Source of the DNA: an uncultured Sphingorhabdus sp.
Lineage (GTDB): Bacteria > Pseudomonadota > Alphaproteobacteria > Sphingomonadales > Sphingomonadaceae
Assembly: GCA_937944295.1 (NCBI GenBank)
Contig: CALDZL010000029.1
Location: 1-35,540 of the forward strand
DNA length: 35,540 nucleotides
Direction: 5' to 3'
Shown here: positions 6,110-8,771 of the stretch, in pieces
Numbering within the stretch: position 1 is the stretch's first letter
Layout of the letters: every line of letters begins with the position of its first letter
Made by a program: the position numbers and the translations under genes
Notes under the pieces: generated by a model
Databases searched by the model: none
The model's input: the letters and a program-made list of their open reading frames with translations, nothing else
What the model was told of the DNA's origin: nothing

Positions 6110-6463
6110 ATGAAAAAATATACTGGTATGGCTGGTGCTTTAATTGGTGCCGCTGCTTTGGCTGCTTGCGGCGGTGCATCAGATGCGCCTGCAGAAGGCG
6201 AAGCCTCAAACGACGCACCCGCAGAAGTTACACAAGCATCCGATGATGGCGCTAAAGAAAAATGCTACGGAATTTCTCTTGCTGAGAAGAATGATTGTGC
6301 AGCGGGTCCAGGCACTTCATGTGCTGGTACATCAACGGTTGATTATCAGGGCAATGCTTGGAAATATGTTCCTGCTGGTGAGTGTGAAAAATATGGTACC
6401 GAAACTGGTGAAGAATATACTCTTCCAGAAGGAAAGAAAGGTTCATTGCAACCAATCGCATAA
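6110..6463 (+). CDS. DUF2282 (bufferin-like) lipoprotein 1
   Basis: A 117-aa exported protein. The N-terminus has a lipobox, LAAC, with the lipid-acceptor cysteine at C20, followed by an acidic Ala/Glu/Asp-rich linker of about 30 residues. The domain from residue 50 onward matches DUF2282: KCYG (C52), NDCA (C63), SCAGTS (C71), [11 protein letters not shown] (C92). In the DUF2282 family the usual members are soluble periplasmic copper-buffering peptides (bufferins, BufA) whose cysteines are modified by a DUF692 (MNIO) enzyme with a DUF2063 partner. Here the anchor would be lipid, and no DUF692 or DUF2063 gene occurs anywhere in the window. A GGAG ribosome site precedes the ATG. A related gene follows 59 bases later. 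Family assignment is firm; metal binding and modification are inferred. Confidence 0.88.
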
Positions 6464-6522: not shown

Positions 6523-6840
6523 ATGGTCAAAGACATTACAAATATAGCAAGCGTTCTCATCATCATGGGGGCGCTTGTTGCTTGTGGGGAGAGCGAGGAG
6601 GATATAGATTATAATATCGATGAACCCACAAGAAATATTCTGAGTCCTCAATTGTCTGATCGCGAGCAATGCTATGGCTTAGCCCTTGCTCAATTTAATG
6701 ATTGCGCAACGGCAAAATCACATTGCGCTGGCACGGCTAGCCTAGATTATCAGTCTGATCGTTGGAAATATGTTAAGCGCGATTCTTGCGAAGAAATGGG
6801 CGGATCACTGACATCAAAAAAAGACGAGCGTATTAAATAA
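6523..6840 (+). CDS. DUF2282 (bufferin-like) lipoprotein 2
   Basis: A 105-aa paralogue of the preceding gene. It has a signal sequence with a lipobox, LVAC (C21), then an acidic linker, then the same domain: QCYG (C50), NDCA (C61), HCAGTA (C68), WKYVKRDSCEEMGG (C89). All four family cysteines are retained, but the spacing between the second and third is one residue shorter than in the first copy. The two copies share only the C-terminal domain clearly; linkers and tails differ, which suggests an old duplication. An AAGGGG ribosome site lies before the ATG. It is probably co-transcribed with the first copy (59-base gap). As with the first, no maturation enzyme is adjacent. Confidence 0.85.
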   Translation: MVKDITNIASVLIIMGALVACGESEEDIDYNIDEPTRNILSPQLSDREQCYGLALAQFNDCATAKSHCAGTASLDYQSDRWKYVKRDSCEEMGGSLTSKKDERIK

Positions 6841-6903: not shown

Positions 6904-6932
6904 AAAAAAGGGACCCAGCAATCGCTGAGCCC
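6904..6932 (-). terminator. Rho-independent terminator of glnK-amtB and the candidate sRNA
   Basis: Read on the minus strand, GGGCTCAGC pairs with GCTGGGTCCC around a GATT loop (one bulged base and one G-T pair), followed by six T residues. It lies about 75 bases beyond the amtB stop. Confidence 0.8.
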
Positions 6933-7000
6933 ATAGTTTTATGTTCGCGGGAGGAACATGTTGAGGCAATGGGTTAGGAGGGCAAACCCATTGCCAATCT
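6904..7000 (-). ncRNA. Candidate 3'-UTR small RNA with anti-Shine-Dalgarno loops, downstream of amtB
   Basis: On the minus strand, immediately after the amtB stop codon, there are three consecutive stem-loops. Hairpin 1 (6965-6995) has perfect 11-bp arms GGCAATGGGTT/AACCCATTGCC with loop TGCCCTCCT. Hairpin 2 (6941-6959) has 6-bp arms ATGTTC/GAACAT with loop CTCCCGC. Hairpin 3 is the terminator with a six-T tail. Both internal loops are pyrimidine-rich and complementary to Shine-Dalgarno sequences, a layout known from several alphaproteobacterial trans-acting sRNAs. It could be released from the amtB mRNA by processing or have its own promoter inside the end of amtB. It could also simply be a stabilising 3' UTR. 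Confidence 0.5.
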
Positions 7001-7008
7001 CTTAAGAC

Positions 7009-8316
7009 TTATCGGGTAAATTCGGGATAAGCTTCGACACCAACTTCAGTGATATCCATACCTTTCATCTCATCTTCTTCTGTTGGACGCAGGCCAATTG
7101 TATATTTCATAGCAATCCATACAATAGAGCTTGCAATGAATGTGAATATACCGATGGAAACTACGCCTAAGGCTTGCACGCCATAGGTTGCATCGCTATT
7201 TGATAAAGGAACAATCATAGTACCCCATATACCAGCCAATAAGTGGACTGGAATTGCACCAACAACATCATCGATTTTTAACTTGTCGAGCATAGGCACA
7301 GCGAAAACAACGATTACGCCGCCTACTGCACCGATTAAGACAGAAGTAGCAACAGTTGGTGCCAATGGCTCAGCTGTTATAGATACCAAGCCTGCCAATG
7401 CACCATTTAATACCATGGTGACATCAATTTTCTTGTACATAATCTGCGTCAAGATAATGGTAGCGACCACACCACCCGCAGCCGCCATATTGGTGTTTAC
7501 AAATATCTTTGAAACATCGCTGACATCGCCAATAGTGCCCATTGCCAATTGAGATGCACCGTTAAATCCAAACCAACCGAGCCAAAGAATGAAGGTACCC
7601 AATGTGGCGAGTGGTATGCTTGATCCAGGAAATACTTGGACTTTTCCATCAATATAACGGCCCAAGCGTGGTCCAAGGAAAATGGCACCTGCTAGCGCAG
7701 CCCAACCGCCAACGCTATGTACTAATGTAGAACCTGCGAAATCAGAGAAACCACGCTGGTCTAACCAGCCTGCACCCCATTCCCAGCTGCCTGTAATAGG
7801 ATATAAAAAACCTGTTAAAACAACGACAAAAATCATGAATGGCCAAAATTTAATACGCTCGGCCAGTGTACCAGATACAATAGAAGCCGTCGTCGCACAA
7901 AACACCATTTGGAAGAACCAATCAGAAGCTACAGAATAACCAGTCTCCGTATCAGCTTCACCAACGCCTTGCATGTCATAGATACCAAATGTTCCAATCC
8001 AACTGCTCACATCAGTATACATCAGATTATAGCCGGTAACCCAAAACATAAGGCCCGCAACAGAATAGAGGGCAATATTTTTAAGACTTTGCATTGATAC
8101 ATTTTTGGAACGTACCAGGCCAGCTTCTAACATTGCGAAACCAGCGGCCATCCACATGACCAAAAAACCGCCAATTAAAAATAATAAGGTATTTAGGATA
8201 TAGGCTGTACCACCAGAAACTAACTCTGCTGATGGTGCCGCTTCTTGTGCAAAGGCAGGGACTGTCGTCAAAAATGACGCCCCAACTGCTCCTGCAATTT
8301 TCATTAAATTATTCAT
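7009..8316 (-). CDS. amtB: Ammonium transporter AmtB
   Basis: Inner-membrane ammonium channel, trimeric in its family and closed by unmodified PII protein. The 435-aa product has a cleavable signal peptide (ending TVPAFAQ) and about 11 membrane helices. The conserved pore pair is present: the first twin histidine in FAGSTLVHSVGG, the second in IPVHLLAGIWG, with the structural aspartate in SDFAGS. The start at 8316 (MNNLMKIAG) is preceded by AGGGAA at good spacing; an open frame extends to 8367 but lacks support. The gene lies 63 bases after glnK and should be driven by the same sigma-54 promoter. The transcript ends in a strong terminator at 6904-6932. Confidence 0.97.
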   Translation of the reverse strand: MNNLMKIAGAVGASFLTTVPAFAQEAAPSAELVSGGTAYILNTLLFLIGGFLVMWMAAGFAMLEAGLVRSKNVSMQSLKNIALYSVAGLMFWVTGYNLMYTDVSSWIGTFGIYDMQGVGEADTETGYSVASDWFFQMVFCATTASIVSGTLAERIKFWPFMIFVVVLTGFLYPITGSWEWGAGWLDQRGFSDFAGSTLVHSVGGWAALAGAIFLGPRLGRYIDGKVQVFPGSSIPLATLGTFILWLGWFGFNGASQLAMGTIGDVSDVSKIFVNTNMAAAGGVVATIILTQIMYKKIDVTMVLNGALAGLVSITAEPLAPTVATSVLIGAVGGVIVVFAVPMLDKLKIDDVVGAIPVHLLAGIWGTMIVPLSNSDATYGVQALGVVSIGIFTFIASSIVWIAMKYTIGLRPTEEDEMKGMDITEVGVEAYPEFTR

Positions 8317-8379
8317 TTTATTTTCCCTGTAGATTAACCATTTTGGTATTTTCATTGTTTCAAACATCTGGCTCTTATT

Positions 8380-8718
8380 TTAGAGAGCTGCATCATTGGT
8401 ATCGCCAGTACGGATACGCGTGGCCCCTGCCAGATCAAATTCAAAGATTTTCCCATCACCAATAGATTCGCTATTCGCTGCGCTTCTGATGGCTTCACCA
8501 ACTTGTGGAACCAAATCATCACTGCACGCTATTTCAAGCTTAACCTTTGGCACCATATTGGTTGTATATTCTGCACCACGATAGGTTTCAGTTTGCCCTT
8601 TTTGGCGACCAAAGCCTTTTACTTCTGTAACGGTCATGCCTGATATCCCAATGCCCGTGAGAGCCTCGCGGACTGCATCTAATTTGTGCGGTTTAATTAT
8701 TGCTATGATATATTTCAT
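8380..8718 (-). CDS. glnK: PII nitrogen regulatory protein (GlnK type)
   Basis: Trimeric cytosolic signal protein that senses ATP/ADP and 2-oxoglutarate, binds AmtB, and acts on GlnE and NtrB; uridylylated under nitrogen limitation. The 112-aa length is standard. The T-loop TETYRGAEYTTNMVPK contains the uridylylated tyrosine at position 51, and the C-terminal PII signature IGDGKIFEFDL is intact. Two ATG codons stand in a row (8721 and 8718); the second is preferred because GGGG lies 5 bases before it. Placement next to amtB and under a sigma-54 promoter supports the GlnK rather than the GlnB name. Confidence 0.95.
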   Translation of the reverse strand: MKYIIAIIKPHKLDAVREALTGIGISGMTVTEVKGFGRQKGQTETYRGAEYTTNMVPKVKLEIACSDDLVPQVGEAIRSAANSESIGDGKIFEFDLAGATRIRTGDTNDAAL

Positions 8719-8755
8719 CATTACCCCATATTTTTGCTATTATTATCACTTACAT

Positions 8756-8771
8756 AGCAAAGGGCGTGCCA
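8756..8771 (-). promoter_or_regulatory. Sigma-54 promoter of glnK-amtB
   Basis: On the minus strand the sequence TGGCACG, 4 bases, TTGCT matches the RpoN consensus at every conserved position. It places the transcription start near 8745, about 27 bases before the glnK ATG. Confidence 0.9.

Follow-up and report, generated by a model that had tools for sequence, protein, structure and literature searches.

Does the ammonium transporter gene amtB of an uncultured Sphingorhabdus sp. end in an ordinary terminator, or does its 3' end hold an RNA that acts on other genes? The question is raised by 97 nucleotides (nt) behind amtB in the window, which is the whole stretch of DNA analysed here, 35,540 nt long (GenBank assembly GCA_937944295.1, contig CALDZL010000029.1). 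The first-pass annotation had described three hairpins at this place, including perfect stems of 11 and 6 base pairs and a terminator, had noted CU-rich loops complementary to ribosome sites (anti-Shine-Dalgarno loops), and had placed them at the end of a sigma-54 operon. All of the hairpins are present, and glnK-amtB is preceded by a perfect sigma-54 site. Among relatives the loop of hairpin 2 is near-invariant, while 63 of 81 hairpin-1 loops contain CTCC or CCTC. The element is very likely a nitrogen-linked small RNA (sRNA), and the family to which it belongs is real and apparently undescribed. We further consider it probable that it is a nitrogen-induced, trans-acting sRNA of about 100 nt that comes from the amtB 3' end and blocks the ribosome sites of other messenger RNAs (mRNAs). 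Sphingomonads, among them pollutant degraders and inhabitants of fresh water, are widespread.

Fold, covariation and hairpin 2

The three hairpins lie on the same strand as amtB (Table 1). The 97 nt fold at −37.8 kcal/mol, compared with −22.2 ± 3.5 for 200 dinucleotide shuffles, one of which equalled the native value. On slightly longer stretches the z score was −4.15 for the minus strand versus −2.49 for the plus strand.

Table 1. Features around the RNA behind amtB, in window coordinates
Feature	Position	Strand	Evidence or detail
Three-hairpin RNA, whole element	6904..7000	−	fold z −4.41; model match 6906-7002; covariation
Hairpin 1, 11 perfect pairs, GGCAATGGGTT / AACCCATTGCC	6965..6995	−	fold; covariation
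Hairpin-1 loop TGCCCTCCT, first anti-Shine-Dalgarno loop	6976-6984	−	
Hairpin 2, ATGTTC / GAACAT, 6 perfect pairs	6941..6959	−	
Hairpin-2 loop CTCCCGC, second anti-Shine-Dalgarno loop	6947-6953	−	
Hairpin-2 core GTTCCTCCCGCGAAC	6943-6957	−	genus-wide occurrence; near-invariant columns
Intrinsic terminator of operon and RNA	6904..6932	−	stem 6911-6932, 9 pairs, then TTTTTT
amtB, 'marine subtype' ammonium transporter (TIGR03644)	7009..8367	−	stop codon 7009-7011
glnK, P-II protein	8380..8721	−	
Sigma-54 promoter TGGCACGCCCTTTGCT, perfect TGGCAC-N5-TTGCT	8756..8771	−	upstream of glnK
Two adjacent DUF2282 protein genes	6110-6463 and 6523-6840	+	convergent with amtB

The check proposed at the outset was a search of relatives for compensatory changes in the stems and for conserved loops, and both were found (16 of 28 pairs in the genus, 24 of 28 in the family). 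When 44 RNAs from the genus were aligned without structure, 96.0% of the cells paired, and the 16 pairs altered on both sides compare with 7.5 ± 1.7 in shuffles, none of 500 being as high; shifting the partners by one column cut pairing by half. The 44 sequences were used to build a first covariance model, R1. A second, R2, was built from 81 diverse matches: 16 were drawn from the 44 genus RNAs and the others from loci of the family Sphingomonadaceae, with L155, L235, L241-L244 and L246 left out of training. In the 81 sequences there are 443 cells with changes on both sides, against 116 ± 8 when shuffled (0/500 shuffles), a tally that counts sequences and not events, in an alignment fitted to the model. 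Changes on both sides affect 11 of 12 pairs of hairpin 1 in the genus and 12 of 12 in the family, and all 10 pairs of helix 3, the terminator, in the family. An alignment of 26 sequences made by MAFFT only and folded with RNAalifold returned the identical three hairpins, with both-side changes in 19 of 28 pairs. The notion that this is just a terminator accompanied by fortuitous hairpins would have the frequency of operon-end terminators in its favour, helix 3 being one, but chance accounts neither for covariation in 24 of 28 pairs, unmatched in 500 shuffles, nor for a near-frozen core in 81 sequences. It is refuted by the covariation in genus and family, the spread of R2 and the MAFFT alignment, and retains practically no probability.

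Stems 1 and 3 vary freely in the 81 sequences, whereas the core of hairpin 2 is frozen: of its 15 columns, 11 show no variation, two are shared by 80 of the 81 sequences and another (A or G) by 77, and the remaining loop position is C in 16/16 Sphingorhabdus and T in 65/65 others. Short insertions ahead of the 3' arm of hairpin 2 were seen in two sequences. This contrast between the core and the two other stems suggests that hairpin 2 is likely to be the working part of the RNA. The same rigidity could be read in another way, namely that a protein docks on hairpin 2, or that hairpin 2 is a sponge for another sRNA, its anti-Shine-Dalgarno likeness being incidental. In favour of this, both stem and loop are frozen beyond what pairing with variable ribosome sites would need, and no recurring extended target was found in a small sample; the loops of hairpin 1, however, independently have CTCC or CCTC in 63 of the 81 sequences, which points to the same purine-rich partner. 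We regard a docking function as improbable. Immediately before hairpin 1, the 81 sequences share a conserved 5' flank of the form purine-purine-N-U-U.

Distribution and genomic place

Within the genus Sphingorhabdus the RNA is found in 44 of 45 genomes, 43 having the core GTTCCTCCCGCGNAC exactly once and the 44th having it with a single mismatch. G012 is the sole genus genome without the core, and no RNA match lies near its only ammonium-transporter match (contig C287). Among the 61 genomes examined first, 36/37 from the genus had the core versus 1/24 others, and a reversed control gave one match. When named genomes were scanned for the core followed closely by ACT, 50 stretches were obtained, 36 of them under sphingomonad titles; R2 hits every one of the 36 but not one of the remaining 14. 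The end of amtB lies just upstream of the core in 34 of these 36, the contigs of L135 and L149 ending 105 and 39 nt before it. Similarly, amtB directly precedes the RNA in 42 of 43 genus loci, the remaining one (L084) being truncated by a contig end, and a classical AmtB C-terminus was found 59-213 nt upstream of the core in 30 of the 31 Sphingorhabdus loci tested.

At an expect value (E) ≤ 0.1, R1 finds matches in 211 of 298 family genomes; at E ≤ 1e-5, R2 finds them in 226 of 298, representing 83 of 96 genera. Thirteen of these 226, whose best E lies between 1e-6 and 1e-5, are uncertain because three genomes outside the family, found in a class-wide search, also reach 1e-5, so that near-threshold matches can be false. 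Among 23 ammonium-transporter loci, mostly from R2-negative genomes, there were seven weak gene-end matches (17-30 bits), largely to the terminator. In L308 (G131) and L311 (G078) no model match was obtained, yet a CCTCC stretch and a terminator stand behind amtB, and these tails are probably decayed or shortened forms of the RNA. This gene-end reading retained only loci with a plausible AmtB C-terminus.

Beyond the family, R1 at E ≤ 1 matched none of 13 amtB loci from other families of the order (L005-L017), an order-wide search matched 15 genomes outside the family at E ≤ 0.1, and the class-wide search at E ≤ 0.001 matched 55 of 385 genomes, 50 of them outside the family, all those listed scoring at most 36.5 bits. 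When 25 extra-family loci were read, only L257 and L258 were at amtB ends, both without the hairpin-2 core. In L258 (G713), from a different alphaproteobacterial family, amtB is followed by a hairpin whose loop is CTCTCTCG and then by a terminator, and this tail is perhaps an analogue that lacks hairpin 2. Another analogue is perhaps the CU-rich stretch G037:C173:3474-3541, which suhB matches weakly at 25.3 bits; it comes directly after amtB in L016, a locus from another family of the order. Carriage by viruses was considered and rejected: 60 viral contigs contain the core, but their R2 scores are at most 24.8 bits, an estimated chance level.

Outside the genus, a same-strand amtB directly precedes 68 of 72 matches in 71 loci, equivalent to 67 of 71 distinct places (L155 and one copy of L239 are the same place). 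The 72 are what remains of 79 matches after removal of seven weak ones (≤ 19.2 bits), and the distances from amtB to the RNA in family loci are counted from where the BLAST match stops, which need not coincide with the stop codon. Four matches depart from this arrangement, L241 and three weak ones that score under 30 bits. Among the best matches of the model search (L152-L186), amtB is present in 35 of 35 loci. Such constancy could mean that the RNA acts in cis only, hairpins 1 and 2 and the terminator stabilising the amtB mRNA at its 3' end and having no targets in trans, and GC-rich stems ahead of a terminator could indeed slow decay from the 3' end. A stabiliser, however, needs stems and not a near-invariant loop. 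Nor does it explain why the RNA is alike behind two types of AmtB and recurs behind kdpDE-like genes in G470, and we think that a cis role by itself is unlikely.

The occurrence of the RNA does not depend on the type of AmtB. The window and three relatives encode the 'marine subtype' (the relatives are 86-96% identical), and the other genus loci read encode classical AmtB; the two types are about 32% identical, and the RNA with the genus-specific C in its loop follows both. L239 (G082:C4) has the tandem order glnK-amtB-RNA-glnK-amtB-RNA-glnK with one amtB of each type, and its two RNAs are 89% identical and mutual best matches among the 81, which suggests copying or exchange of the RNA. A second copy in G470:C1 (L241:2177-2298, 37.6 bits) retains hairpin 2 and the terminator and lies not behind amtB but behind a KdpD/KdpE-like pair, so called from best NCBIfam matches that fall below their cut-offs. 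This copy, which is flanked on both sides by TTCAACGC repeats, may have moved into another regulon. The presence of the RNA behind two AmtB types and once behind kdpDE-like genes, together with the G082 tandem, argues for selection on the RNA itself, and the RNA thus seems, from these comparisons of sequence, to be conserved for its own sake. A broader proposal, which we hold tentatively and with some doubt, is that it serves as a regulatory tail that can be carried from gene to gene and through which sphingomonads exert most of their post-transcriptional response to nitrogen. It would be kept by its own selection, copied or exchanged between ammonium transporters of very different types and occasionally moved, as to the kdpDE-like genes. 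If so, different stresses could feed one target set.

Likeness to known RNAs

No Rfam 15 family reaches its gathering cut-off in the window or in 20 relative loci, and the covariance-model search that the first-pass annotation had proposed thus gave it no family: ar15, ar14 and suhB are all below cut-off, and no ar7 match was reported. In 19 other loci, ar15, suhB, ar14, BjrC1505 and others gave weak and inconsistent matches. The amtB RNA resembles the CU-loop RNAs in build and is by the cut-off test a member of none, adding a family that is missing from Rfam 15. Membership in ar14 (RF02344), to which NfeR1 presumably belongs, was rejected, with 29.3 bits against a cut-off of 58.8 and partial overlap in 1 of 19 loci and no match reported in the window.

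Membership in ar15 (RF02345, the AbcR family) was rejected likewise: the window scores 22.7 bits against a cut-off of 40, the best of 19 loci scores 26.9, and none of 20 loci reaches gathering. A search of 61 genomes with ar15 gave none over the cut-off; at E ≤ 10 it picked up 6 of 14 control genomes as well, and the place in the window was missing from its matches, probably through the stricter filters used over 40 genomes. The genome from which the window comes has its top ar15 match at C137, with 16.9 bits; this sequence forms no such hairpins on folding and was set aside. The resemblance is one of layout. The alignment of the window RNA to the ar15 model runs over the full length and takes in the terminator, and both have an anti-Shine-Dalgarno motif in loop 1, a second between hairpin 1 and the last hairpin, and a terminator. 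In the amtB RNA, by contrast, the second motif has a hairpin of its own, loop 1 lacks CTCC and CCTC in 18 of 81 sequences, and the whole is tied to amtB and sigma-54, unlike AbcR1 and AbcR2. A further trait of the AbcR family is a free-standing gene with its own promoter, and on this point the amtB RNA was seen behind amtB at 67 of 71 distinct places. In Sinorhizobium, loops of this kind in AbcR1/2 block the Shine-Dalgarno sequence (excerpt of PMC8844928).

suhB (RF00519) was rejected too, scoring at most 26.2 bits at the amtB RNA in 19 loci against a cut-off of 41 (20.9 bits in G022). It exceeds its cut-off in 23 of 37 genomes, and its best match lies away from the amtB RNA in the four genomes compared (G000, G006, G010, G022). 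In the window's own genome, two SuhB-like candidates below cut-off, G000:C70:12569-12635 (32.0 bits) and C91:26211-26287 (30.7 bits), have TCCTCCC and CTCTCC stretches ahead of a T-rich terminator. SuhB itself is described as an Hfq-dependent sRNA in the sphingomonad Sphingopyxis granuli (excerpt of PMC6563040).

Nitrogen-related precedents are found elsewhere. NfeR1 of Sinorhizobium is, like the amtB RNA, an alphaproteobacterial RNA with anti-Shine-Dalgarno motifs; it is described as nitrogen-responsive and as a repressor of ntrB (excerpt of PMC10746234), and unlike the window RNA, as we read it, it has its own promoter and is repressed by NtrC; it differs also in having three identical motifs (excerpts of PMC8844928 and PMC10746234). 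mmgR, which goes with SuhB under Rfam suhB, is described as activated by NtrC (in a title cited by PMC9170634). In Enterobacteriaceae, the sRNA GlnZ is released by RNase E from glnA mRNA under nitrogen limitation (excerpt of PMC9731577). Like GlnZ, whose parent is under sigma-54/NtrC control (same excerpt), the amtB RNA is at the 3' end of a sigma-54 nitrogen-assimilation mRNA; its parent gene differs, and no common structure is claimed. According to that excerpt, GlnZ pairs with sucA at a site far upstream of where translation is initiated. Among the titles and abstract openings listed in searches of the open-access literature, no description of an amtB-tail RNA was found and very little on sphingomonad small RNAs.

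Promoter, release and targets

The sigma-54 site ahead of glnK is the sole match in the window, and 5 of 100 shuffles contained one. Among family loci with glnK immediately before amtB and usable upstream DNA, the consensus, in a somewhat looser pattern, occurs in 48 of 53, and four of the five loci missing it look like near-matches; another 14 places lacked a usable glnK. A wider tally of sigma-54 sites ahead of any glnK gave 86 of 114, which includes glnK copies lying after the RNA and loci from other families, the 48/53 count being the cleaner. In its position, at the tail of a nitrogen operon with a sigma-54 site, and in sharing the operon terminator, the RNA has the layout expected of an sRNA derived from a 3' untranslated region.

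In the mechanism that we favour, scarce ammonium would elicit sigma-54-dependent transcription of the glnK-amtB operon, presumably under NtrC control. The mRNA would then be cut immediately ahead of hairpin 1, probably by RNase E, whose motif the purine-purine-N-U-U flank fits, to give a short transcript that has the terminator and its U tail as its 3' end. Its CU-rich loops, chiefly CUCC[U/C]GC of hairpin 2, would pair, we infer with the help of Hfq, with the Shine-Dalgarno regions of target mRNAs, block their translation and so link nitrogen limitation to repression elsewhere. Alternatively, the sRNA could be made from a promoter of its own in the spacer between amtB and the RNA, independently of sigma-54. 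The spacer varies in the genus, the core starting 59-213 nt past the stop codon, which gives room in some species, and SuhB is described as a separately annotated, trans-encoded sRNA of 61 nt (excerpt of PMC6563040). In the family, however, the RNA model usually starts about 10-20 nt past the end of the amtB match, and a scan for E. coli-type promoters found none just upstream, with the reservation that alphaproteobacterial promoters may differ. Furthermore, synonymous variation does not drop at the amtB 3' end of 29 Sphingorhabdus genes, so that there is no sign of a promoter within it. A separate promoter is accordingly a poor prospect in our judgement. Together with the conserved 5' flank and the U tail, the lack of a promoter signal in the amtB end makes release from the glnK-amtB mRNA, followed by Shine-Dalgarno silencing, the simplest model, for which GlnZ, AbcR1/2 and NfeR1 would be the precedents by analogy.

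A search for the 11-nt complement of hairpin 2 before ATG found 80 places in 47 of 99 genomes, compared with 13 in the reversed control; some matches are the RNA's own reverse strand. Several observations weigh against release from the operon mRNA and silencing in trans. No recurring gene was seen by eye among the 19 framed loci of 30 read, a small sample in which the other 11 had no frame of at least 30 amino acids. Loop 1 has neither CTCC nor CCTC in 18 of the 81 sequences, and the invariance of hairpin 2 is in part a product of selection, since members were found by the core or by a core-containing model. The synonymous-site test leaves room for a promoter in the spacer. Finally, of the 20 R2-negative family genomes listed, out of 72, 16 retain an ammonium transporter and four do not, so that amtB can exist without the RNA.

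If the model is correct, the targets would be the mRNAs that sphingomonads silence when ammonium runs out, and the anti-Shine-Dalgarno regulation of rhizobia would extend to an RNA excised from an operon tail. With its presence in three quarters of the sampled family genomes, its near-frozen seed and its recognisable promoter, the RNA offers a testable handle on this response.

Past the terminator, both DUF2282 genes are on the opposite strand, and the RNA in the window therefore heads no downstream gene. The two neighbouring DUF2282 proteins resemble a tandem duplication.
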